Below, one piece after another: positions 44,723-58,505 of a stretch of 64,000 bases of DNA. The stretch spans positions 1-64,000 of the forward strand of contig NZ_LYXE01000041.1 in the NCBI RefSeq assembly GCF_002532075.1. Direction: 5' to 3'. The notes under the pieces were generated by a model. It saw only the letters and a program-made list of their open reading frames with translations, did not search any database and was not told the origin of the DNA. The first letter of the stretch is position 1, and each line of letters opens with the position of its first letter. Origin of the DNA: Candidatus Chloroploca asiatica. Lineage in GTDB: Bacteria > Chloroflexota > Chloroflexia > Chloroflexales > Chloroflexaceae. A program made the position numbers and the translations under genes.

Positions 44723-45514
44723 TCAGATAGTGCTAAAAAGGCTCCCTCCGGCAGTCATGACAAACAGCAGATTGGCAAGAATGCCCACAACAAGGCTGAT
44801 GGCAACCATCAAGAGCAGATACATGGTGCGGCGACGGATCATGCGCTTGAATTCGCCCTGCAAGATCAATTCGAGGGTCTCTTGATGGGCGGCAAGCACA
44901 GTCTCTACCCGTGCTCCTTCGGCCTCGGCCTGGGCAAGCGCATCGGCTACGTCGCAGAGTTCGCGGCACCCTCGTTCGCGTGCGGTAAGACTCAGGGCGG
45001 CAAAAGGCCGTAGACGCTGATCAGCCCCTGTTTCAAGGGCGTCACTTACCAGGGTTTGCATCACGGCCAGACGCGGATGTGGTCGTCGGGTGTACCGCCG
45101 CATGATTTCAATCGGTGCTTCAAAGCTGCCCAGCGCAACCCGTACAAAGCTGATAAAGCCCGGCGTGAGACGACGTAATGCAGCGGCCTGCCGTTCGTGC
45201 CGCAGTTGCGGTAGGCGCGGCAAGACAAAGCCTAGCGCGAGATATGCCGCGAGTGCAGCGCACACCAGCAAGTTCGCCTGGTTCCCCCTCACACCGCTCC
45301 CCAGGGTTGCCCCCAAGAGCAGTGCGGCCAGGCTGAGGCCAGCAAGTTGCCCGGCCAGCAACCGCCCTGTCGCCGTCAACGGTGCGTTGCTGAAGGTGAA
45401 GGAACGGCGGGACAAACTTTGGCCACCAATGGTGAGTCCGAGAAGGCTGAAGAGTCCACCCGCGAGCGCCATAGTATAGAATGGCGCTCCAGGAGCGAGG
45501 AAAAGATCAGGCAT
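44723..45514 (-). CDS. tadC: TadC-like inner membrane platform protein
   Basis: Type II/IV secretion F-domain protein of 263 aa, last gene of the Tad run. Membrane segments lie at about 12-30, 52-70, 78-96 and 232-255. The F domain lies between (RRLTPGFISFVRVALGSFEAPIEIM, DALAQAEAEGARVETVLAAHQETLELILQ). With TadB it forms the platform on which the CpaF motor assembles pilin. GAGAGG lies 5 bp before ATG 45514. A 20-bp palindrome follows the stop. Confidence 0.88.
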   Translation of the reverse strand: MPDLFLAPGAPFYTMALAGGLFSLLGLTIGGQSLSRRSFTFSNAPLTATGRLLAGQLAGLSLAALLLGATLGSGVRGNQANLLVCAALAAYLALGFVLPRLPQLRHERQAAALRRLTPGFISFVRVALGSFEAPIEIMRRYTRRPHPRLAVMQTLVSDALETGADQRLRPFAALSLTARERGCRELCDVADALAQAEAEGARVETVLAAHQETLELILQGEFKRMIRRRTMYLLLMVAISLVVGILANLLFVMTAGGSLFSTI

Positions 45515-45569: not shown

Positions 45570-46526
45570 CTAATAGTCGGCATCCTCAACCTGGGCGAGT
45601 GCGAAGCCTCCGAGGACGGGCAAGATCAGGGCCAGGCCAACGATCGGGGCGACAAGCATGCCCAGCGGCGTGGTGTAAGCGACAATAACCCGTTCCCATT
45701 GTGTCCATGCCAGATAGAGCGCCATGGTTACGCCGGCGAGGCCGACGGCCACCCCGCTATACCGCATCTGGGCAAGTTCAGTGCGTGCTTCGTCGCGTCG
45801 GCGATCCGACGCTTGCAGCGCGGCATAGGCTGCTTCGCAGCGCCGCGCCAGCACATCCTGTGGTTGCCCGACCGAGGCCCCTAGATGGTTGAGCAGGTTG
45901 GCATGGCGGCGTGAGGGCGTCTGATCAGCGAGCGCAATCACCACCTGTTGTGCGGTGGCAATGCCTCCTCCTTCCAAGGGCATCCCCTGGCGCGAAATCA
46001 GGTAGCTCCATTCGCTCTGCAAGGGGCCGGAACCAAGATCGACGGTCACCCGCTCCAGCGCAGGACGTAAACCAGTTCCTGCTTTGAGCAGCGCACTCAG
46101 ACGCCCAACAGCAGCGGTTAATTGCTGATCGAGTTTATGTATATAACGCTGTTGAGCGACCAACACCATTCCCCACACGAGCACAGCAGTCAGTGGGAGC
46201 CCCAGCAAGAGCGCGAGACTCAGCGGGGCAAAAAGGACCAAGCCGATGCTGAGCATGATCGCTAGCGCAAGGCCAGTTGTGACGAGTTGCGTTGGCGTGA
46301 TCACCACGGGTGCCCAGAGCAAAGCAAGATCAGGACGCATATGCTCAGGCATCGTGGCAAGCCTGTGCCGCTGCCGTTTTGTTTGCACGGTGACCGTGAG
46401 CCTGATCAGGGCAGGACGTACAAGGGTGGCAAGGATCAGCAACGTCAGCAAGCCGGTCACAGGCATGACGGCGTGGATCAGCCACGCGGTTTCGGGATGG
46501 GTAATCGCAACAAGAAGTGATATCAT
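45570..46526 (-). CDS. tadB: TadB-like inner membrane platform protein
   Basis: Protein of 318 aa and partner of TadC. Membrane segments lie at about 19-40, 85-130, 255-275 and 290-310. The cytoplasmic F domain carries LDQQLTAAVGRLSALLKAGTGLRPALERV and RRCEAAYAALQASDRRRDEARTELAQMRYSG. The ATG at 46526 lies 14 bp after the preceding stop; a TTG at 46544 would overlap that gene. It is part of the co-directional Tad operon. Confidence 0.87.
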   Translation of the reverse strand: MISLLVAITHPETAWLIHAVMPVTGLLTLLILATLVRPALIRLTVTVQTKRQRHRLATMPEHMRPDLALLWAPVVITPTQLVTTGLALAIMLSIGLVLFAPLSLALLLGLPLTAVLVWGMVLVAQQRYIHKLDQQLTAAVGRLSALLKAGTGLRPALERVTVDLGSGPLQSEWSYLISRQGMPLEGGGIATAQQVVIALADQTPSRRHANLLNHLGASVGQPQDVLARRCEAAYAALQASDRRRDEARTELAQMRYSGVAVGLAGVTMALYLAWTQWERVIVAYTTPLGMLVAPIVGLALILPVLGGFALAQVEDADY

Positions 46527-46540
46527 TGTCGTATCCCTGG

Positions 46541-48520
46541 TCAAGTAGTTAAAGCTTCAAGCGCAGCCTGCACCGGGCCGAGCGCGTCTCCACCAATCTC
46601 ACCGGCGGCGTGTAGGATGGTGAGTGCGTCACGCCGCGTTGCGAGCGTCTCAACGGCCACGCTCTTCGACAGAGCCATCGGGTCGCACTGGATCAACAAG
46701 TCAACCGCATCACGGGCACGACCTTGCGTCAGGGCCAACCGGGCCTCGGCGATCTGAGACCGGGCCAGGTAGTCACGGTCTTCACCAGCAGCAATCATGC
46801 GCTCAAGGTGCTCCCACCCCCCCGAGGGGCTGTGGGCTGCGACGATCGCGAGATCCGCCATGACTTCGCCATAGGCGGCGCGTGCGTCAGGCCAACGACG
46901 CGAACCAAGCGCCGCCTGAATAGTGGACTCGGCCTGACGCGACTGGGTCGCCATCGTGCTGGCAGTCTCAAGATCGAGTTCAAGGACGCGCTGAGCCGCA
47001 GTGACAAGCCGTTGATCACGGCGATCGCTCCAGGCTCGCCGCAAGATTGCCAGCGCCTGCGTTGCATCGCCCGAGCGCGTGACGGCACTTGCCCGCGCAA
47101 TGGCTTCACTGACCGCAGTATGGGTTGTCGCGGCGGCACGTACATCGGCCCGCAATTGCAAGAGCTCAAACCGGCGCTGCAAGGCCTCTGGGGTTTGCCC
47201 CTCTGTTTGCCAGACCAGACGATCACCCTGGGCGACTGCCTCGACGTGCCATGTCACCTCGCCTTCAGTATGTTTCACGCGTGCCAGCGGGACAAACCGG
47301 GGGCGTAAACGCTCTCCCTGCGCCTCGACACCATCAAGGAGCAGGATTTCGTCAATGTAGCGCCGTCCGCTCACCTTCTCAAGGTGGATCACGACCTGAA
47401 AGTTATCGCACGTATCTTCGAGCGCATGCTCACGTCGCCCTTCGTAGATATAGGAGCCTGGCATGGCAGCACAATCGGCAAAACGGCTTACTGCACGCGC
47501 TGCCGAGCGGGCGTGGATGGTGGTCACAACGGCATGGCCGCTGACGGCAACGGCGAGAATCGCCCCCGCTTCATCGGCACGCGTCTCGCCAGGTGCGACC
47601 AGCGAGGGTGTCTGGCGCAAGACTTCACGCGCTGCGCGCCCAAAGGCACCCCGTTCGACGGCGGTCTGCACCAGTTCGCGCGTCCACGCCCGATGACGAA
47701 CGTTGATCTCCAGTGTATTGTCCTCAATTGTGATGACATGCGGCTCGCCCGGCCACGAGTTGACCAGGGCTTCGAGTAGCGCCGTTTTGCCACACCCGGT
47801 CTCGCCCGCAATGATGAAGGAACAGCCCGCCCGCACAAGTAGGCGCAAGAGATCCCTCACGACCTGATCGCACGCCCGCCGACGCAGCAGATCATCGAGC
47901 ACCCAGGCATAGCGTCGCCCGCGACGAATGCAGATCAGGCCAGTCCCATCGGGTGTACACGGCGGAATGGTGACATGCATCCGTGTTCCATGCGCAAGCG
48001 GCAGCGTGTCTTGTGGGCGCGAACGGTCGAGCGGTACATTCAAGCGCGCCGCTAGAAGCATCGCCCGATCCAGGGCTTGACGTGGATCCTGGAACCGCTC
48101 GGCAACCAGACTAAAATCGGCGCCTTCTTCCTGCACCATAATCAGATCACCAATGATCTTTACCTCCTGAATGCGCTCATCATCCAGGTATGGCTGGGCC
48201 GGCCCCCAGCCGAGCGCCTCTTGAAAGAGCCGTAAGAGTGAGTGTTCATCAGTTGGCAAATGGCGCAATGGGCCATACCCTGCCTCGACCTGATGCCCAA
48301 TCTCGGCACGCAAGACGCGTAACACTTCTGGATCGCGTACCGATGCGGGGGCCACCGGGTCAAGCAAGGTGGCACTCATGCGATCGCGCAGCGACTCGCG
48401 CACCGCCTGAAGCGTCAGGGCATCCAGGCCACTCGCCTGAGCTTGCCCCGACGTAACGGGACTCAAGTTGGTCAGGCCACCATCTTCAATCACGGTCAAT
48501 GGACGATGTGAGGTAAGCAT
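46541..48520 (-). CDS. CpaF/TadA-type secretion ATPase with helical C-terminal extension
   Basis: Second secretion ATPase of the locus, 659 aa. The ATPase core has Walker A GETGCGKT at 239-246, an acidic ITIEDN motif and TTIHARSAARAVSRF. The Walker B region reads LVAPGETRADEAGAIL, differing from the usual I-V-G-E-V-R-G-G-E but keeping the Glu. After about residue 445 there are some 210 extra residues, Ala-rich and helical (AILRRAWSDRRDQRL, WPDARAAYGEVMADLAIVAA, RSQIAEARLALTQGRARDAVDLL). They look like degenerate TPR units and are not usual in CpaF. AAGGAG lies 7 bp before the ATG. It sits between the CpaE-like and TadB genes. Confidence 0.88.
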   Translation of the reverse strand: MLTSHRPLTVIEDGGLTNLSPVTSGQAQASGLDALTLQAVRESLRDRMSATLLDPVAPASVRDPEVLRVLRAEIGHQVEAGYGPLRHLPTDEHSLLRLFQEALGWGPAQPYLDDERIQEVKIIGDLIMVQEEGADFSLVAERFQDPRQALDRAMLLAARLNVPLDRSRPQDTLPLAHGTRMHVTIPPCTPDGTGLICIRRGRRYAWVLDDLLRRRACDQVVRDLLRLLVRAGCSFIIAGETGCGKTALLEALVNSWPGEPHVITIEDNTLEINVRHRAWTRELVQTAVERGAFGRAAREVLRQTPSLVAPGETRADEAGAILAVAVSGHAVVTTIHARSAARAVSRFADCAAMPGSYIYEGRREHALEDTCDNFQVVIHLEKVSGRRYIDEILLLDGVEAQGERLRPRFVPLARVKHTEGEVTWHVEAVAQGDRLVWQTEGQTPEALQRRFELLQLRADVRAAATTHTAVSEAIARASAVTRSGDATQALAILRRAWSDRRDQRLVTAAQRVLELDLETASTMATQSRQAESTIQAALGSRRWPDARAAYGEVMADLAIVAAHSPSGGWEHLERMIAAGEDRDYLARSQIAEARLALTQGRARDAVDLLIQCDPMALSKSVAVETLATRRDALTILHAAGEIGGDALGPVQAALEALTT

Positions 48521-48531
48521 GTGCTCTCTCC

Positions 48532-49800
48532 TTACGCGACAGCCGGTGTAGGCACCGCCAGCGTCCGATCACCGCGGAGGCGGGCATGCATCCGCGCCCA
48601 GAAACTCGAACGTGGCATCGGGAGCGTTGGTTGCAGCCCGAGACGGACACAGAGTGTATCGGCGACACGGTGAACGGCTCCAGCAAAAGCTGAGTGTGGC
48701 CCAAGATCGAGCATCGAGATATAGCCGTCATGCTCGTCGGCAAGACTGGCTAGCCGTGGCGCTCGCGGCAAGGTACCCAGTGGACGTACCTGTGGGTAAC
48801 GACGCTGAAAGAGCGCTGCAACATCAGGGACAGTTGCCGTCACCCCACGCTCAGGTTCGATAAAGAGCAACGTACACCGTTCGAGACTATCTGGGGCATG
48901 GTCACGCAAATGGTCGAGCAGGTGGCCTACACCCATTCGCTCGCGTGCGCCGGGAGGCGTCGGCAAGATAACAGTGCCTCCCGATTGCAGCACATGCGTG
49001 GCATACGGACGTCGTAGGTAATCTGGAGGCGTATCCACAATGATCAGATCATAGCCACTCAGGGCTGCTGTTCCGTGATAAAAGCCTTGCCAATCAGGCA
49101 GACGCACATCATTTTCGGCACGCGCAACAGCATGCGAGCCGATCAGAAAATCAATGGCACCCCACCCCTCCGCCGTGCCACGCGTATGCTCAGGTTGGTA
49201 AATGAACGGCTCGATACCCGTCGGATTCCAGTGCGCTGGTCCCCGCTGAATCAGATGCAGATACGATGGCGCACTAGACGGCACGCGAAATGCTGGTACA
49301 AGACCCGGATTCGAGATGTCACTATCCCAAACCAGCACCTGCAGGCCACGCCGCCGTAAGCCTTCGGCAAGGACACAGGTCGCGAAAGTTTTGCCAATGC
49401 CGCCTTTGGCTGCACCAACCGCAATGACGGCACTGCTGCGGAGGCCCGTACCAGGGCGGAGGCCGAGTTGCTCGCCCAGCCAGGTGGCGACAACCGCAGG
49501 ATCGCGTTCGGCAAGGGCAGGCAATCCGGCTCCCTGGGCCTCATTCAGGGCGGCCCGTGCAGTACCGGGAAAGTTGACGAAGACCCGTACCCCTGTTCGC
49601 CGTGCGAGTGTGGCGGTGCGCCACAACTCGGCGAGCGGTGCTGCGCGTGTATCATCAAGGTACAGCGCGTCGGGGGGGCGTGTTCCTTCGATCAAGCGAT
49701 TTACCTGGTCGAGTTGCGATGGTGCCAGCACCGCAAGATCGCGAAATTGTTCGATGTGCGTTGCAAGCCCATCCATTGCCGTAAAAATGATCAATTCCAT
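48532..49800 (-). CDS. cpaE: CpaE/TadZ-like pilus-locus ATPase (MinD/ParA fold)
   Basis: Protein of 422 aa with a receiver-like N-terminal part (about 1-115) and a MinD/ParA domain carrying the deviant Walker A KGGIGKT at 132-138. Other motifs are WDSDISNPGLVPAF and LIIVDTPPDYL. CpaE/TadZ proteins position the Tad apparatus in the cell. The N-terminal part lacks the usual phosphoacceptor surroundings, so it is likely a pseudo-receiver. ATG 49800 is used with GGAG 8 bp upstream; the longer frame to 49875 overlaps the upstream gene's end and has no family support. Confidence 0.87.
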   Translation of the reverse strand: MELIIFTAMDGLATHIEQFRDLAVLAPSQLDQVNRLIEGTRPPDALYLDDTRAAPLAELWRTATLARRTGVRVFVNFPGTARAALNEAQGAGLPALAERDPAVVATWLGEQLGLRPGTGLRSSAVIAVGAAKGGIGKTFATCVLAEGLRRRGLQVLVWDSDISNPGLVPAFRVPSSAPSYLHLIQRGPAHWNPTGIEPFIYQPEHTRGTAEGWGAIDFLIGSHAVARAENDVRLPDWQGFYHGTAALSGYDLIIVDTPPDYLRRPYATHVLQSGGTVILPTPPGARERMGVGHLLDHLRDHAPDSLERCTLLFIEPERGVTATVPDVAALFQRRYPQVRPLGTLPRAPRLASLADEHDGYISMLDLGPHSAFAGAVHRVADTLCVRLGLQPTLPMPRSSFWARMHARLRGDRTLAVPTPAVA

Positions 49801-49853
49801 CGAGGTCTCTCCTCTTAGACGGTATCGGCGTGGCCGGAACGACCGCGCCCTTC

Positions 49854-51116
49854 TCAGAAACGGCCAAGCCCCCACGCCGCATTGACATTCCCAGTCTGCA
49901 CGAGACGCTCGTAGTACTGGTCATAGCTAAAGAGCGTATTGGTCGGAAAAACATCCCCACTCTGTCCTTGCGCTCCCTGACGCAAAACCTCTTCAATCGA
50001 GAGGACGGCACGCCGTCCACGGGCTGTCTGTCCAATGGTGACGACAATCAGATTGACCGTATCAGACGTAATCAAACCACGGACAATCTGCGCTGCCGCT
50101 TGACCGCCACCACCTGCTTCGGCGGCGAGACCAAGCATTGCCATCCGTTCGAGATTGCGCAAGGCTCCCTGTACCCCGCCGGCGTGGATCGTTCCGACGC
50201 CGGGGTGTCCAGTGGCCGCCGCCTGGAGCATCGCCATCGCTTCGCCGCCGCGCACCTCACCCACAATGATGTAGTTCGGTTTCTGGCGCAACGCAAAGGT
50301 TACGGCACGCGTGAAACCACCCTCTTCTGCCGGGGCCTCAAGATGGAGACTGTTGGGCGAACGGGGAAGTTCGCCCCCGTCTTCGACAAAGACGAGCCGC
50401 ATCCGTTGCCCAACGGCCTGCGTCAGCGCTGCCGTCAAGGTTGTCTTGCCACTCCCCGTTGGGCCTGCGACAAGCAACGATGCGCCTGAAGCGAGTCCTG
50501 CAAGCAAGAGCTCTGAAGCCTCACGCGAAATGATGTGGGCCTGCACAAGATCATCAAGCGTTCGCCAGCGCTCAGGCAAGAGCCTGATCGAGAGACTCCG
50601 GCCCATCCGTGAGACAGGTGGCCCGGTGATGGCATAGCGGAGCAGGTCGGCCACGCCCTGCGCCATAGGCGGCCAGTCGAGCACATAGGGCAAAACCTTC
50701 ATATCGCGCAACAACAACTGATGCTGCGTCCAGGTGATCCAGTCGGGATGTGCTGTGACCCCGGTGCAGACCATCGCACCACGTTGCACCACATAGAAGG
50801 GCTCTTCGGGCGGCCCGTTGTACAAAATATCCGAGACCTGATGTTCGGGATCACGCCAGATCTCCAGCGGGCCGTACCAGTTGATATGAACCCAGTCGTC
50901 GCTCCCCAACGCTAAGCCGACCCCAAGGCGCGCAAAGGCTTCTTCAGGCGGTAGATCCCAGCAGTCACGGAAGCGTCCACTTCGCACAAGCATCTGCAAC
51001 TCTTCGGTGATCGCTGCATAATCAGGTCTGATGCGCAGCGCCCTCTTTCGTTCCTCGTTGCTCTGCCCTGCACATGCCGCCAGTTCGGTCTCGACCAGAT
51101 CGCACTCGGTATGCAT
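49854..51116 (-). CDS. cpaF: CpaF/TadA-type secretion ATPase
   Basis: Canonical motor ATPase of the Tad run, 420 aa. Walker A GPTGSGKTT is at 218-226, Walker B YIIVGEVRGGEAMAML follows, and the His-box TGHPGVGTIHAGG is present. The N-terminal ~150 residues include LGVGLALGSDDWVHINWYGPLEIW, which is poorly conserved. AAGG lies 5 bp before ATG 51116. It powers pilin polymerisation or protein export at the membrane with TadB/TadC. Why the locus has two such ATPases is unclear. Confidence 0.9.
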   Translation of the reverse strand: MHTECDLVETELAACAGQSNEERKRALRIRPDYAAITEELQMLVRSGRFRDCWDLPPEEAFARLGVGLALGSDDWVHINWYGPLEIWRDPEHQVSDILYNGPPEEPFYVVQRGAMVCTGVTAHPDWITWTQHQLLLRDMKVLPYVLDWPPMAQGVADLLRYAITGPPVSRMGRSLSIRLLPERWRTLDDLVQAHIISREASELLLAGLASGASLLVAGPTGSGKTTLTAALTQAVGQRMRLVFVEDGGELPRSPNSLHLEAPAEEGGFTRAVTFALRQKPNYIIVGEVRGGEAMAMLQAAATGHPGVGTIHAGGVQGALRNLERMAMLGLAAEAGGGGQAAAQIVRGLITSDTVNLIVVTIGQTARGRRAVLSIEEVLRQGAQGQSGDVFPTNTLFSYDQYYERLVQTGNVNAAWGLGRF

Positions 51117-51236: not shown

Positions 51237-52133
51237 TCAAGGCTGCTCACTTCCAGGCACAGGACTATTGGCCCCAGGAAGGGATGTATGCGTTCCGGGG
51301 AGCTCGTTCGCGTCAACGTCAGCGGCCTCTCCTTCAGGCGCAGGTGCAAGCAAGGCCGGTAGGGTGACCTGTCCGATATCGAGCCGGTCGAATGCACTCA
51401 GGACTTCTGACGTGCTGCCGTAACGCTCGCCCCACATTGGCAACCCAGCCGCCTGCAACGCCCAGATGGTATGGGCCTGATAGGGTGTCATCTCAAGATA
51501 AGCAGTAGTTCCTTCGATCCAGAGCACGCGCACCGAACTGAGCAGGCGGCACGCATACGGGCGTGGTGTCCCGAGTTCGCCCTGGCTGACCGTCACTCTG
51601 CTTGGTGCTTCGCCTGCCGCCGCTGCAATTGCCTCATCACAAAGCGCCGGATCGCCCGACGGATCGCTAAAACCAAGATTGACCCGATCACGGTAGTTCA
51701 CTGGCCCGAGCGCTGCGACGCTGAAGGGGACTGGCACCATATTGACCGTCAATTGCTCGCCATTCGGATAGACAGGTTGATCCGGTGGTGCAGCCATAAG
51801 CATCCCTGGTTGCACGAGATCATTGACGCCAAGGTTGCGTGCCGCATACTGTCCAATCACAAGACTCGCGTCGGTTATGCCCGCCAGGGGCACCGGACGA
51901 TGCAGAGGTACCTCAACCATGCCCAAGTCTTCGGCCACAAGCTGTTGACCAAAGGGCACTTCATGGATCAAGACTACGACCTGTTCGGTTCGTTGGCTCT
52001 CGAGATATCCCATCACCGCAAAAGCGATCGCTGCGATCAAGCCTGCCGCAAGCATCAGAACTGGCAAAGGACTCGCCTTCTTCCGTGTCAGGGCCTGCCC
52101 TAAAGAGGGCGCGTTGGGTGTCATGGTCGTCAT
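51237..52133 (-). CDS. RcpC/CpaB-like pilus assembly protein (SAF domain)
   Basis: Protein of 298 aa with one N-terminal membrane anchor (about 22-43, LPVLMLAAGLIAAIAFAVMGYL). An SAF domain follows (VVVLIHEVPFGQQLVAEDLGMVEVPLHRPVP, QYAARNLGVNDLVQPGML). In diderms CpaB/RcpC works with the outer-membrane secretin. No secretin gene is present here, which fits a single-membrane envelope. The C-terminus is Pro/Ala/Glu-rich. AAGGAG lies 8 bp before ATG 52133. Confidence 0.82.
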   Translation of the reverse strand: MTTMTPNAPSLGQALTRKKASPLPVLMLAAGLIAAIAFAVMGYLESQRTEQVVVLIHEVPFGQQLVAEDLGMVEVPLHRPVPLAGITDASLVIGQYAARNLGVNDLVQPGMLMAAPPDQPVYPNGEQLTVNMVPVPFSVAALGPVNYRDRVNLGFSDPSGDPALCDEAIAAAAGEAPSRVTVSQGELGTPRPYACRLLSSVRVLWIEGTTAYLEMTPYQAHTIWALQAAGLPMWGERYGSTSEVLSAFDRLDIGQVTLPALLAPAPEGEAADVDANELPGTHTSLPGANSPVPGSEQP

Positions 52134-52160: not shown

Positions 52161-52850
52161 TCAATAGATAAGCGGGGTCACAGGCTCTAGTCGATCCGCT
52201 GCGATAATCAGGGGTGTGTAGGTGCCCCACCCGACCAACCCCTTCATAGTCGGGCGAACCTCGGCACAGATCAGGGGCGTGGTTTCAGTTGGGACATTCA
52301 CCCCATTGCTGTAGGTGCAACTCCCTCCTGCGGGCAAGACGGTCCAGCGTACTTGGGCGGTGACGCTTGCCGGTGAAGCAACGAGCCCCCTGACACTCGT
52401 GAGGTTAGTGCGAAAGAGTTCGGCAGCAACCCCAAGAATGGCGGCACAGGCTGTCCCCTGGGCCTGGGCGACGGTTACGGACTGGCAGGCCGCGCCTCCC
52501 CGTAGTTCGATCTCGCCCCGGGCAAAGGCGGCATAGTCGAGTTGCTGTACTGCCGAGCGCGTCGCTTGCTGCAGGGCATCTTCGACCATAGCGACTTCAA
52601 GCCAGCGCTCCGCCACTTCGATCACCAACAGGGTAAAGAGCACCAGGAAGGGCAGGATGATCACTGCCAACGGGATGATCTGCCCCGCTTCCCTCGCCGA
52701 ACGTAGCCCCCCGAGCCGTCGCCGCCATTGCCATTGCGGTGCGGTGCCACGCAATGAACGCTGGGGCTTGCTTTGAAGTGGCGTTGTCTCACGTTTGCTG
52801 GAGGCAACCTGTGAGGCTTGTTCAAAGGTGGTTGGTTGCGCTTGCTTCAT
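52161..52850 (-). CDS. TadE/TadG-like pseudopilin protein
   Basis: Protein of 229 aa. A polar basic N-terminus of about 50 residues precedes AGQIIPLAVIILPFLVLFTLLVIEVAERWLEVAMVEDALQQATRSAVQQLDY, the hydrophobic TadE/TadG-type helix. Four Cys residues occur in the exported part (GGAACQS, GTACAAIL, GGSCTY, PLICAEV), so disulfides are possible. AGGAGG lies 6 bp before ATG 52850; the longer frame to 52904 would overlap the TadE gene. It should be a minor pilus component. Confidence 0.83.
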   Translation of the reverse strand: MKQAQPTTFEQASQVASSKRETTPLQSKPQRSLRGTAPQWQWRRRLGGLRSAREAGQIIPLAVIILPFLVLFTLLVIEVAERWLEVAMVEDALQQATRSAVQQLDYAAFARGEIELRGGAACQSVTVAQAQGTACAAILGVAAELFRTNLTSVRGLVASPASVTAQVRWTVLPAGGSCTYSNGVNVPTETTPLICAEVRPTMKGLVGWGTYTPLIIAADRLEPVTPLIY

Positions 52851-52860
52851 GTGAACCCTC

Positions 52861-53265
52861 CTATTGCTGATCACGCTCGGCAGCGCGCACAGCTTCAGAC
52901 TCAAGGGTGAATTCGTTGAAAAAGGGGGCTACCGGCGCCCAGTACGCTCCCTGATAGGCAATGTTGACGGTGATCGGGTCGTAACGTCGGCACGGTGTCC
53001 GCAGACATTCGATCCGTACCTCCGCCGCATCGGCCCGTGTTCCCACGCCCGCATTGAGCACCGCTGCCGCCGCATCATAGGCCGTTGCCGAGGCCCCGCC
53101 CGCTAGCGCAGCCTGATGCGCTGCTGCACGTGCGGCCTGGTTGACGGTGTAGCCTGCCAACAGGATCTGCCCGATGCAGACCAGCCACAAAACGAGGGCG
53201 AGAAAGATGCCTATCACCAGCATAAATTCGACAATCGCCTGTCCACGTTCACGTCTGACTATCAT
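52861..53265 (-). CDS. tadE: TadE-like pseudopilin
   Basis: Protein of 134 aa starting MIVRRERGQAIVEFMLVIGIFLALVLWLV, the typical TadE N-terminus with a Glu after the cleavage-like Gly-Gln-Ala and a single membrane helix. The rest is exported and carries a CLRTPCRRY Cys pair. AAGGAGG lies 6 bp before the ATG. It is 10 bp upstream of the TadG-like gene and 30 bp downstream of the giant surface protein gene. Confidence 0.87.
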   Translation of the reverse strand: MIVRRERGQAIVEFMLVIGIFLALVLWLVCIGQILLAGYTVNQAARAAAHQAALAGGASATAYDAAAAVLNAGVGTRADAAEVRIECLRTPCRRYDPITVNIAYQGAYWAPVAPFFNEFTLESEAVRAAERDQQ

Positions 53266-53295: not shown

Positions 53296-56200
53296 TTATG
53301 GTGTCGTTGGTGCGCCACCTGGACGATGGCCCGGGCCAACGACACTCCGTGGGACAACCAGCGTGATCCCGAACGTCTCGGGGTAGATCTGGCGCACCTC
53401 GGGAATGCTGGTGATCCTGATCGGGTTTAGCGTCCAGTCGCCCAAGGGTGCGCCAGGGTAGAGGTTGACAACCCAGACTTCTACTTCGATCGCAACGGTA
53501 AGCCGTACCTCCTCCATCGGGTCAAGCGTAAAGAGATATACATCCGACCGCATCGTTGGCAGTGGGGTGCCCGCCGGTCCTCGATGGGTCCAGTAGACAT
53601 GGCCCTGACTCTGCATCTCGTTTTCGGTCAGAGGGGCTGTTGGCAAGACGGCATTGATTGGCCCGCCGACCGTGGTTGCCCCGGGATAGATGTAGGTGCA
53701 ACCGGCAAGCGCCGTCTGCGCGAGCGTGCTGCTTCCCACCCGACACCCAACCCTCCCGGCCGCATCAGCGTCGCTACGCGCATCAATGGTGCGTCCGTTG
53801 ACCTGGTAATTCACCACGCTCCAGCCTACGACGCGTCCGTAATAGGCATATGGCAACAATGGGTCGAGGCCACTGAAGGGGTCATTGACCCGTAATTCGG
53901 TCAGGCGCGGCGTGAAATCGAGCACTTCCCCGGCTGGCCACGTGATCCGGGTTCCCTCAGAGAGGTAGACAGCATCGTTCGGGTCACTCCCGCCATGGTT
54001 TGGGTCAAACTCTGAGTGCATGGCGAGCCGTACCACTCCTGTGCCATCAATGCCCGTAGGAGGAGCAACAATATCAGTTGCATCGGCGGCACTGTTGTCA
54101 ATCGTTTCATCACCAGGGGTTGTCGTTGCAATCCTCGCCGCCAGCCCAACGATAGCCCCTGGCTGCTCGCGCACACGTACCGTCAGGTAGAGATCGCCGC
54201 TCGCGTGTGCGACAAGTGTCCCGTAGTCAAAGACGAGCATTGGTGCGCCGCTGGCATCAGTCGTCCTCACGTAGCCCCCAAGGGGAGCCCCTGTTGCGTC
54301 ACTCACCTGTTCCAGTTCGGCATTGCTTGGCAGCATAATCCTCAGACTCGTCCCCGCAGCCGGGCGCGTCAGGTGAGCCGGATGCCGTAACGCCGGCGGT
54401 AATGTCAGACTCGCTGTGTTATTGCCGTATGTCACCCGGAACCTGACAAAGCTCAGCCAACCAGCCGGCCCGGCAGCGGGCAGACTCTTGTTGACGGCCT
54501 GTACCCGCACCCAGACATTCGGGCGCGTGACGTCGACCTGATCGCTGGCACGGTTATTCGCCAGGGTGCTGCTGCGCTCGGGCGTTATGCCAGCAATGGT
54601 TCCGCGGGCTGTCAATGTATTGGCGGCATACGTCGCCGCATCCAGGGGCGTCGCTGGAAGTTGCACGGGCACAACGACGCTCCCCGCTGCATTGGCATTG
54701 ATCTCACCAAGATTGCATTGCACCCGCGGTTCCCCATTGAGCGGTGCTATACTCTGGCAGTTGCCAGTGAGGTTGCCTACCCGCGTTTCGGCATCAAGTG
54801 TGACCGTTAGCACACTGCCCCAGCTGATCCCAGGGCCACTATTGCGATAGCTGAGGTTGATTGTTCCGGTCTCGCCAACTGGCAAGGGACGGGGATTGAT
54901 CTGCAGGCTCAGACCTAAATCGGGGTACTGCACCAGCGTTGTGGTGGTCGCCTGATTATTGCCGAGACGATCCCCTTCGTCGGTTGTGCTAATGTGAGCC
55001 TCATTGACCAGTGCATTAGCTTCGCTTGGTAGCGCTCTGACCTGAAAACGGATCGTGCCATGCCCGCCAGGGGCAAGCGAGAGCAAGGCACATTCGATGG
55101 CCGTCCCAAGATAATGGCAGATATTGCCAGGGTTCTGCTCGAAGGCCACAAAAGCGACGTTTGCAGGCAACTGATCGGTGATCCCAAGATTGCGGGCAAC
55201 TGTGCTCCCACTATTGTGATAGTCGAGCTGATAGGTAAATGTTTCGCCAGCCAGTACGTGGGTTGGTGCTGTTTTGCTCAGACCAAGCTCGGGACGCAAC
55301 AATTCGGTGGTGTAGCGCGCCTCGTTATTTGCAGTTGTCACCTCGTAGCTCGTCGTACTAATCGTGGCCTGGTTTTCGACCGGCCAACGCACCGCATCCG
55401 GCGGACTAAAAGTTGTTGCGGCTCGCACCGTCAAACGGATGCTGCCCGTCGCACCTGCATGGAGTGCCCCAATACTCCAGCGCAAGTCATTCCCGTTGAC
55501 CGTTGTCGGCGCGGGCTGCGCCGCAACATAGGTGAGGCCAGGCGGGAGCAAATCGCGCATCTCGACACCTGCCGCTACGCTGCTTCCCTGATTGCCATAG
55601 GCCAGGGTATACTCAAAACTCACCCCGGCACGCACGCTGGGTGGCCCCTGTTTGGTGACCCAGAGATCGGCCTCACTCACAAGGCCCAGATCAAGATCGT
55701 TGCGCGTCTCATGCGGCTGCAGCCTGATCCACCCCGTTGCATACCCCGTACTGGCATTGGCATCACTGTCACGGTTACGGTCACTGCCCTGCCTCAAAAG
55801 AGTTGGTGCAAAGGGCAGGTTGCTAAAACGCACCTGATAAAGACCTGGAGGAAGATCGGTGAACGCAAACGCACCATTCCCCCCGGTAGTGACTGGATCA
55901 ACCAGCCGCGGCAGCGTCGCCCCAAGCGTCGCCTCTTCAAGTGCTACCGTCACCCCGGCAACTCCCGTTGCCCCATCATCTTGCAGGCCGTTGCGATTCG
56001 TATCAAGCCAGACCCAATCCCCAATCCGTCCCGTTGGCGGCTGTCGCGTGAGTCCAAGATCAAAAGTGCGTTCATCAGCACGATTCCATGGTGGACGGAT
56101 GGCATATGGACTCAGATCTTCATTGGGATACGCAAACTCGATGATGCCAAGCGCTGGATCAACATTGCTGCGAATCGTATCGTCAGCTACCGCATGAGGC

Positions 56201-58110
56201 AGCGTGAAATGATATCCCGCCTGCGCCAGCGTCGCCCGTGTCCACTGACCCGGACTCCCACCGCTGGCAGTGATCCGGATGCCAAAGTTGGTATTGGGCG
56301 GAACGGCAAATAGGTAACGCCCCTGGCTATCAGTCACCGCACGGGCTGTCGAGCTCATCACCGGAGCCGATCGAGGGATGCCCTGAAAGAGTTCGAGCGC
56401 AACATTCGCCATCGCTGGTTCACCTGTCTGACGAATCCCATCGCCATTCAGGTCATCCCAGACCCGCCCACCAATTAACGCGTAGTTGCACAAGACCTCG
56501 AGGTCGCCCAGGTTCGAGGCTTTCGACGCCGACGCGGTCTCGCCGGCAATCACCGGGGCACGGCCTGAAATCGCGCTACTCGTCACCGCTCCACTGGCCT
56601 GCTCGTAGACCCGCACCTCCTGGGCATTGCGTCCACGCAACGCCGTAATCCCCAGCGTGGTCCCAATGTTCTCAACCGAAGTCTGGCTATTCAGGACACT
56701 CGCCAGCGCCCCCATATGGTTTTCGCTATGGGCAGGGATTGGGTCAGTTGCCATACCCTGATAATCGTTATCTTCGTAGGCTTCACCTGATTGGAAAACC
56801 CACTGCCACGAGCTATTCAGGCGGTAGGTGAGGGTGTCGCCCTGCGCAATTGAGCTGTAATGAAAGTCTGGCGTCTGGGCATTGCCATTGAAGCTCTGAT
56901 CGCCGGTGCGATCACGGAGGCCAAGGATCATCAGTGGGCGGCCCTGGGCCGGTGAGCCTGTTGACGGTGCTTCGTTGAGAAACTCGATCGCCGTCAACAT
57001 GGGCTGCGCATAGAAAACACTATTATCAAAGCGCGGTAACGCTTGCAAGTCTTCACGCCAGGGGTTCCAACTGCGGGTCAGACCAGGCCACTGGCTATAC
57101 ACCTCTTCAAAGAGCGTCCCCGCATGGCGCTGACTAATGCCTTGGATCAGCGTATTGCCAAGATCCTGGTGCAACGCGAGCGCCCAGGGTCCTACGCCCA
57201 AATGTTGCGCAAGCACATAGATCCGTGGCGGCACCTGAAAATAGTCGCCACTCGCTGTCGCTGCACCACCACCACGCGCAGCACTATCGGTAAGCCCAAC
57301 CACGAGATGAGGCGCATTACGATCCGAGGAAAAAGGCCAGAACGCAATTGCAAACGGCCACAGATCAGCCTGAACAGCCGGATCAGACGAAATGACACTC
57401 AGATCGATGGGAAGTGAACCGCTATAGCGCGGCAACCCCAGCCTTGTCAGATCAAAGCGTTCGATCCGTTTCGGTCCAAGGTTGACGACATAGAGCGTAC
57501 GCCCATCGGGGCTAATCGTGATATCACCAAGGCTGGTTGTGCCCACACCGGCAATCGCTTGCTCATCGGTATAATTCGGCGGAATTGACGTGGGGCGATT
57601 GACGCCGCTTGCCCCGGGGGCCGTAATATGCCCCTCGAGGTGCCACCCGGTCGGCGTGCGGGTCAGCACATAGATCGCCCCGGGACCGCCAGGCCCATAC
57701 GGGGTTAGGCGTTTGGTATAGGCAGCGGCAAAAATGCGTTCACGCCCACTTACCGCGCCATCATCATACGCCAGACCATAGATAGCCCCCAGATCACCAA
57801 TGGTGGCAAGGATCGCACCTGCCGAATTCATTGTTAAGCCCTGGACTGCGGGGAGGTTCCGAGCCGCGGCGGCTTCGGTCGTTGAGCCGGGAGGCAAATA
57901 CATCGTATTGGCATAGCGGCTGGTAATAAATTGATCTGGCTGTTGCAAACAGCCAACCGCGCTCCCAAAAGCCCCCGCAGGGGTCACATGGGCCTCGGCA
58001 GAAGCTGGCCGCAAAACCAGACCAGCCGTAGGGAACAGGGGAAGCAGAAAAAAGAGGAGCAAGGTTCCACGAAAAACCAACTGAAGCAAAAACGCTTGAT
58101 AGTAACGCAT
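53296..58110 (-). CDS. giant secreted SdrD_B/DUF11 surface protein, first gene of the Tad run
   Basis: Exported protein of 1604 aa. The signal peptide (about 1-40, FRGTLLLFFLLPLFPTAGLVL) ends at ASA-EA. Residues about 50-530 resemble a beta-propeller-like region (DGRTLYVVNLGPKRIERFDL, GDITIS). Two SdrD_B/Cna-B-like domains follow near 543 (GGRVWDDLNGDGIRQTGEPA) and 695 (GDWVWLDTNRNGLQDDG). Then come DUF11-type repeats near 814, 940 and 1063, and a further strand-rich region from 1198. No LPXTG motif or C-terminal membrane anchor is seen. AGAGGA lies 4 bp before ATG 58110; the frame from 58158 gives no signal peptide at its start. It is the promoter-proximal gene, so an adhesive or pilus-associated structural role is likely. 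Confidence 0.87.
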   Translation of the reverse strand: MRYYQAFLLQLVFRGTLLLFFLLPLFPTAGLVLRPASAEAHVTPAGAFGSAVGCLQQPDQFITSRYANTMYLPPGSTTEAAAARNLPAVQGLTMNSAGAILATIGDLGAIYGLAYDDGAVSGRERIFAAAYTKRLTPYGPGGPGAIYVLTRTPTGWHLEGHITAPGASGVNRPTSIPPNYTDEQAIAGVGTTSLGDITISPDGRTLYVVNLGPKRIERFDLTRLGLPRYSGSLPIDLSVISSDPAVQADLWPFAIAFWPFSSDRNAPHLVVGLTDSAARGGGAATASGDYFQVPPRIYVLAQHLGVGPWALALHQDLGNTLIQGISQRHAGTLFEEVYSQWPGLTRSWNPWREDLQALPRFDNSVFYAQPMLTAIEFLNEAPSTGSPAQGRPLMILGLRDRTGDQSFNGNAQTPDFHYSSIAQGDTLTYRLNSSWQWVFQSGEAYEDNDYQGMATDPIPAHSENHMGALASVLNSQTSVENIGTTLGITALRGRNAQEVRVYEQASGAVTSSAISGRAPVIAGETASASKASNLGDLEVLCNYALIGGRVWDDLNGDGIRQTGEPAMANVALELFQGIPRSAPVMSSTARAVTDSQGRYLFAVPPNTNFGIRITASGGSPGQWTRATLAQAGYHFTLPHAVADDTIRSNVDPALGIIEFAYPNEDLSPYAIRPPWNRADERTFDLGLTRQPPTGRIGDWVWLDTNRNGLQDDGATGVAGVTVALEEATLGATLPRLVDPVTTGGNGAFAFTDLPPGLYQVRFSNLPFAPTLLRQGSDRNRDSDANASTGYATGWIRLQPHETRNDLDLGLVSEADLWVTKQGPPSVRAGVSFEYTLAYGNQGSSVAAGVEMRDLLPPGLTYVAAQPAPTTVNGNDLRWSIGALHAGATGSIRLTVRAATTFSPPDAVRWPVENQATISTTSYEVTTANNEARYTTELLRPELGLSKTAPTHVLAGETFTYQLDYHNSGSTVARNLGITDQLPANVAFVAFEQNPGNICHYLGTAIECALLSLAPGGHGTIRFQVRALPSEANALVNEAHISTTDEGDRLGNNQATTTTLVQYPDLGLSLQINPRPLPVGETGTINLSYRNSGPGISWGSVLTVTLDAETRVGNLTGNCQSIAPLNGEPRVQCNLGEINANAAGSVVVPVQLPATPLDAATYAANTLTARGTIAGITPERSSTLANNRASDQVDVTRPNVWVRVQAVNKSLPAAGPAGWLSFVRFRVTYGNNTASLTLPPALRHPAHLTRPAAGTSLRIMLPSNAELEQVSDATGAPLGGYVRTTDASGAPMLVFDYGTLVAHASGDLYLTVRVREQPGAIVGLAARIATTTPGDETIDNSAADATDIVAPPTGIDGTGVVRLAMHSEFDPNHGGSDPNDAVYLSEGTRITWPAGEVLDFTPRLTELRVNDPFSGLDPLLPYAYYGRVVGWSVVNYQVNGRTIDARSDADAAGRVGCRVGSSTLAQTALAGCTYIYPGATTVGGPINAVLPTAPLTENEMQSQGHVYWTHRGPAGTPLPTMRSDVYLFTLDPMEEVRLTVAIEVEVWVVNLYPGAPLGDWTLNPIRITSIPEVRQIYPETFGITLVVPRSVVGPGHRPGGAPTTP

Positions 58111-58190
58111 ATATTCCTCTGGCTCGCTTGGGCAAATGTCCTGACTTATAGACCGCACAAGCCCGCCAGAAGATGCGCTCTCAAGATAAA

Positions 58191-58246: not shown

Positions 58247-58323
58247 TGGTCGGGGCGACTGGATTTGAACCAGCGACCTCCTGAACCCCATTCAGGTGCG
58301 CTACCGGTCTGCGCTACGCCCCG
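58247..58323 (-). tRNA. tRNA-Pro (anticodon GGG)
   Basis: A 77-nt cloverleaf on the minus strand. The 7-bp acceptor stem is CGGGGCG/CGCCCCG with discriminator A and encoded CCA. The anticodon arm is CCTGA-ATGGGGT-TCAGG, with GGG at 58287-58289, and the T-arm holds GGTTCAAATCC. It reads CCC and CCU proline codons. Confidence 0.96.
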
Positions 58324-58505
58324 TTCAATCTGGTTGATTATAGCGCGTTCATGCGGTTCAGTCAAATTATTGGAAAGGTCGGAAGATCTGCTGAGCCAAC
58401 GACCATGCGGCCCGCCAACGTTCCGGAAGCTTGTGCGGAATGGATGGAGTGTGCTCAGTGGCACAACTGAGAGGTTTACGACCTCATTATGATTGCACTG
58501 CTTCA

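Follow-up and report, generated by a model that had tools for sequence, protein, structure and literature searches.

Tad pili have been described as driven by one bifunctional ATPase, and the reversal of that motor is an open question (PMC11300603, PMC12019362). The locus described here raises the question of what two such motors do in one Tad operon. The window, that is, the whole 64,000-nucleotide stretch of Candidatus Chloroploca asiatica DNA that we analysed, is contig C40 of a 5.84 Mb genome, and it carries a compact operon, all of it on the minus strand, with the gene order 1620-aa secreted protein–TadE–TadG-like–CpaB–A1–CpaE–A2–TadB–TadC. Here A1 denotes the ATPase at 49854-51116 and A2 that at 46541-48520; as the original prediction held, both are CpaF-type ATPases, confirmed as minus-strand open reading frames of the T2SSE family. 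We propose, with a probability of about 0.5, that the operon encodes a diverged, vertically inherited Tad-like machine (a type IVc pilus or secretion system) in which A2 is the primary motor and A1 an accessory or opposing one. The parts are of known kinds; their combination and the extended motor are new, and in the literature searched (subscription papers lay outside its scope) there was no description of two TadA motors in one locus.

A2 (46541..48520, 659 aa) is a TadA/CpaF-like ATPase with a helical C-terminal extension, as judged from its reading frame, Pfam, an AlphaFold2 model and a structural match. A1 (49854..51116), assigned from its reading frame, Pfam, alignment and tree, is a second ATPase of this type with a short pore loop and no extension; it is 420 aa long counted from an ATG, and an alternative GTG start is possible 21 nt upstream. 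Between the motors lies a CpaE/TadZ-like ParA-type ATPase (48532..49875; AAA_31, 1.7e-9), which also matched this genome's canonical TadZ in a profile comparison (E 4.6e-8). The TadB-like platform protein (45570..46544), whose start overlaps the A2 stop codon, and the TadC-like platform protein (44723..45514) were assigned by position and by weak profile matches, to canonical TadB (E 3.2e-4) and UpsF for the former and to canonical TadC (E 5.9e-4) for the latter, and both assignments are weakly supported. On the other side of A1 are a CpaB/RcpC-like protein with a SAF domain (51237..52133), found by profile searches; a TadG-like protein with one transmembrane segment (52161..52904), recognised from its sequence, which has orthologues in most full loci and whose true start is perhaps internal; and a TadE pseudopilin with a GQAIVEF-type leader (52861..53265; TadE profile, 6.4e-6). 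CpaE/TadZ, TadB, TadC, TadE and CpaB all stand beside the motors. Neither a Flp pilin nor a prepilin peptidase was found within the locus, the genome having one Flp over cut-off (C89) and one peptidase (C62), and TadV is absent from the locus. The conserved first gene of the operon (53296..58158) encodes the large secreted protein of 1620 aa, with SdrD_B and DUF11 repeats identified by profiles, which from its sequence is probably the operon's exported substrate or its tip adhesin. Its N terminus resembles a signal peptide, an apparent beta-propeller region (seen by eye) precedes the repeats, and a PilY1-like role as tip adhesin is possible. Directly upstream of this gene a tRNA-like sequence (58253-58330, minus strand) was read by eye.

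Both ATPases exceeded the curated PF00437 (T2SSE) cut-off of 24.9 bits, A1 with 102.3 and A2 with 80.5 bits, and neither reached the 373-bit cut-off of the NCBIfam TadA family TIGR03819 (A2, 110.4 bits; A1, 109 bits); as that model is narrow, this failure speaks only against the narrow TadA label. The same genome encodes two further, clearly canonical TadA proteins that scored 226-229 bits with PF00437. One is an orphan without TadB or TadC (contig C30); the other (466 aa; contig C199, locus L084) belongs to an ordinary single-motor Tad locus, RcpC-TadZ-TadA-TadB-TadC, and falls outside the A1 and A2 clades. A1 had been called canonical, a description that does not hold, since its 102 bits compare with 226-229 for this true TadA pair; it also formed a clade of its own, apart from 25 canonical Chloroflexota TadA rows.

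The careful tree, built from 76 rows, resolved A1 (support 97/72) and A2 (100/100) as separate clades and placed both together opposite canonical TadA, VirB11, TrbB and actinobacterial TadA, with 100/95 support for the branch between. The sister relation of A1 and A2 could be a product of long branches; it was absent from an earlier quick tree that used remote outgroups. The position of A2 near GspE in the first quick tree, which had very long outgroup branches, was treated as long-branch attraction and superseded by the careful tree. In topology tests, constraining A2 to TadA was rejected (AU p 0.006) and constraining A1 to TadA was weakly rejected (AU p 0.039). Together, the tree and the AU test rule out A2 as a recent duplicate of canonical CpaF; the extended form is instead an old paralogue. 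In the genome's two nearest relatives, both Candidatus Chloroploca (L085, L109), A2 was 97-98% identical to that of the window, and among viral contigs there was no relative of A2. A deep relative (G063, locus L215) has A1-CpaE-A2-TadB-TadC in the same order at about 30% identity, with an A2 of 880 aa, and this shared order argues that the two-motor arrangement is old.

When 61 genomes (the window's own and 60 relatives) were searched, A1 or A2 was found in 35 and both in 33 of these; in the two genomes with one gene only, that gene sits on a short contig in G023 and at the end of a contig in G048. In 30 genomes a single contig holds the pair at a distance of 1.3-1.9 kb, the usual spacer being one CpaE gene. 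By this distribution A1 and A2 are co-inherited, and conservation of the two-motor locus in filamentous photosynthetic Chloroflexota, across three families of their order, goes far beyond chance. The original prediction had raised the possibility that the extended form always goes with Tad loci in Chloroflexota. This proved too broad, as a profile of the extension matched 28 of 400 Chloroflexota genomes, and every one of the 28 belongs to the order of the window; a panphylum distribution was not seen among these 400, and most of the phylum genomes with a match have canonical TadA-type matches only.

To compare catalytic residues we aligned 20 A1, 22 A2 and 25 canonical Chloroflexota TadA rows, with reference residues taken from the CpaF structures (PMC11300603, PMC12019362). 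Equivalents of CpaF K287, T288, R223, R347, E357, R359 and H382 occurred without exception in the A1 and A2 rows; that of E312 (Asp box) was present in all A2 and in 18 of 20 A1, the two Herpetosiphonaceae A1 having Gln. Walker A reads GETGCGKT in A2 (residues 239-246; 47783..47806, minus strand), its Lys and Thr being invariant in the 22 A2 rows, and GPTGSGKT in A1 by alignment (50442..50465, minus strand). The Walker B region of A2 (GETRADE, residues 311-317; 47570..47590, minus strand) does differ, as had been stated, from the GEVRGGE of A1, and other A2 orthologues carry GEIRGNE or GETRGAE, but no catalytic meaning attaches to the change, because the equivalents of CpaF E357 and R359 (numbering of PMC11300603) are kept in all rows of both motors; this retained Glu and Arg rule out a loss of function at Walker B. 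Judged by sequence, both ATPases look catalytically intact. The NTD arginine R217 of CpaF, invariant in 25 of 25 canonical TadA, is missing from all A1 and A2 rows; D215, equally invariant in TadA, is missing from all of these rows except one A1. The His box of both motors is one residue shorter than that of TadA. Between the Asp-box Glu and the Walker B Glu lies the stretch with the platform-contacting pore loop (PMC12019362); its length is 49 residues for TadA, while A2 rows range over 46-54, mostly 46-47, and A1 rows over 41-45, mostly 42.

The extra helical half ascribed to A2, put at about 210 residues, was borne out as about 219 C-terminal residues (441-659; 46544..47200, minus strand), conserved throughout A2 and predicted as ordered helices. 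The predicted structure of A2 (AlphaFold2, 35 orthologues) had a mean pLDDT of 86, and near 90 in the extension, which when folded alone gave an all-helical model of ten helices with a mean pLDDT of 92; a disordered extension is ruled out by this confident predicted fold. For the core, the best solved relative was CpaF (9e24_A; Z 29.0, rmsd 5.9 over 384). A Foldseek search with the extension gave no match at E<=0.001, an absence that does not show a new fold. Its last approximately 79 residues superpose on LGN-type TPR domains at about 2 Å (Z about 10), perhaps reflecting just a common helical-repeat arrangement, and we describe it as a predicted TPR-like solenoid. Its assignment to a true TPR family by sequence found no support, no Pfam TPR model scoring over cut-off (best TPR_12, E 0.29, 11.8 bits). 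Conservation is lower in the extension than in the core (median identity with the window's A2 of 45%, versus 75-81% for NTD2 and CTD), but the extension keeps near-invariant Trp497, Trp543 and Trp569.

Evidence on which motor is primary came from three genomes (L116-L118) in which CpaB abuts CpaE, followed by A2, with no A1 between. L116 and L118 have TadB next; the contig of L117 breaks off within A2. An A1 orthologue was found nowhere else in these draft assemblies of unstated completeness, and in two of the three A2 was the sole PF00437 protein found. Because A2 and CpaE of the A1-less genomes nest among those of two-motor genomes (A2 tree, 100/96; CpaE tree, support 85), we concluded that A1 was lost, probably in one event. 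A1 also evolves faster than A2 (median 1.53 times; faster in 120 of 120 genome pairs), the pairwise distances of the two being correlated at 0.98. A2 stands directly before tadB-tadC, the place that TadA holds in the single-motor locus L084 of this genome, and A1 is an inserted extra gene between CpaB and CpaE. Taken together, the loss of A1, the rate difference and the gene order make A2 the likely platform-coupled motor and A1 an accessory. The labels of the original prediction look reversed: A2, which occupies the TadA position and survives alone, looks like the ordinary motor, and A1, being dispensable, the extra one.

Starting from the established anatomy, ancestry, co-inheritance, retained catalytic residues, predicted folded extension and A1-only loss, we infer how the motors share the work, a docking role for the extension and the likely substrate, as follows. 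A2 would couple to the TadB-TadC platform in the TadA/CpaF position and would power assembly of a TadE/TadG-type filament, which probably carries or exports the 1620-aa protein; the C-terminal solenoid of A2 probably docks a partner, be it A1, CpaE or a regulator. A1, the faster-evolving second ATPase, may work the same platform as an accessory or opposing (retraction-type) motor that can be lost with the machine retained. That A1 opposes A2 is suggested by analogy with the PilB/PilT pattern. Caulobacter CpaF alone performs both extension and retraction (PMC11300603), so that a second motor is not mechanistically required.

Among known systems, the Caulobacter CpaF/TadA motor of Tad (type IVc) pili (8rjf, 8rkd, 9e24) shares with A1 and A2 the N-terminal helical region, NTD2 and RecA-like CTD, together with Walker A, the Asp box, Walker B, the His box and the R347 and R223 equivalents, and its locus shares the neighbours CpaB, CpaE, TadB, TadC and TadE. 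In contrast to Caulobacter, the present locus has two motors, the helical domain on A2 and the short pore loop of A1, motors that lack R217 and nearly always D215 and have the shorter His box, and neither Flp nor TadV. The PilB/PilT(/PilU) motors of type IVa pili likewise comprise two paralogues at one platform, one of them dispensable, whereas A1 and A2 are TadA-type putative motors of a lineage apart from TadA and VirB11/TrbB. The FlaI/ArlI and archaeal GspE2 ATPases (4ii7, 2oap) share the overall fold (Z about 24-25), but are single-motor and show nothing like the C-terminal extension within the range aligned. The canonical Tad locus of the same genome (C199, L084) shares the RcpC-TadZ-TadA-TadB-TadC order and differs by its single canonical TadA.

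Several other arrangements of the two motors have to be weighed against this one. A1 and A2 might co-assemble into one mixed motor, or A1 might regulate A2 rather than drive the platform, as their strict co-inheritance and adjacency, the shared loss of R217 and almost always of Asp215, and their place on one side of a well-supported branch would suggest; the retention of A2 alone in three genomes and of separate Walker A, Walker B and Arg-finger residues in each protein speak against it, and we consider it unlikely. A plain exchange of roles, A1 being the assembly motor and the extended A2 a retraction or accessory motor, is improbable. It gains from the lack of extra domains in A1, which keeps GEVRGGE and most catalytic residues, and from a counterpoint to the A1 losses, namely that A2 is frameshifted and A1 intact in C. 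aurantiacus J-10-fl and in one other Chloroflexus; A2, however, persists without A1, fills the TadA slot and evolves more slowly, and the Asp-box Glu has been lost in two A1 orthologues. Slightly more doubtful still is a division by cargo, in which one motor polymerises TadE/TadG-type pilins and the other exports the 1620-aa protein: that protein is a conserved operon member, but each locus has a single TadB-TadC pair, and the A1-less loci L116 and L117 have kept the large protein. A recent CpaF duplication devoid of functional meaning would fit the TadA-like fold and profile of both proteins, but is scarcely credible given their deep separate clades, the rejection of A2 with TadA and congruent descent in three families.

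Natural broken alleles of A2 were also observed. In J-10-fl (G029, L074) a run of T near codon 134 of A2 has lost one base (TTTT to TTT), the remainder of the gene being open. G033 (L075) carries an 11-bp tandem duplication at about codon 437, which breaks A2 very nearly at the junction of its ATPase core and its extension. A2 is intact in G272, which we take to be C. aggregans DSM 9485. A second operon copy in Oscillochloris sp. ZM17-4 (L073/L110) has an A2 truncated after about residue 358 and a partial TadB match. J-10-fl is reported to glide about 100 times more slowly than C. aggregans, and the gliding machinery of Chloroflexales was still unidentified in 2024 (PMC11434263); the only pilus genes of Chloroflexales are reportedly of the Tad type, and their pili have been proposed for motility (PMC7332563). 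The pairing of the J-10-fl frameshift with slow gliding is anecdotal, a lead and no evidence, as it concerns a single strain with a single indel, which lies in a base run and may be a sequencing error. It is quite unlikely, in our view, that the two-motor machine, with A2 for assembly and A1 as dispensable opposing or accessory motor, is the gliding engine and that the A2 frameshift explains slow J-10-fl. The locus does supply named candidates for Chloroflexales surface motility, and its natural series (A1 lost, A2 frameshifted, both intact) in a conserved two-motor locus is a direct comparison system for motor reversal.

Two further kinds of TadA relative were observed. A 1006-1036-aa paralogue of the L215-type A2 occurs at L219:6356-9376 (minus strand; contig C191 of the window's genome) and L220:1033-4143 (minus strand), preceded by CpaE and followed by a kinase-like gene, and without Walker A, Walker B, His box or TadB/TadC; since it is conserved in two Chloroploca species, it is likely, from its sequence, to be a dead-ATPase scaffold. 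Concatenated TadA motors, for which the literature search returned no paper, are encoded by single reading frames at L228:7025-9370, L229:201-2576, L231:5709-9266 and L233:5718-8255 (all minus strand) and L230:537-3032 (plus strand). Four of them (781, 792, 831 and 846 aa) contain two TadA domains in tandem and one (1185 aa) contains three, and every domain has Walker A, Walker B and a His box. A comparison of the domains within a chain, made for L228, L230 and L231, gave 58-68% identity, so these are no assembly duplicates; the source of L233 is a near-complete single-contig Chloroflexota genome.
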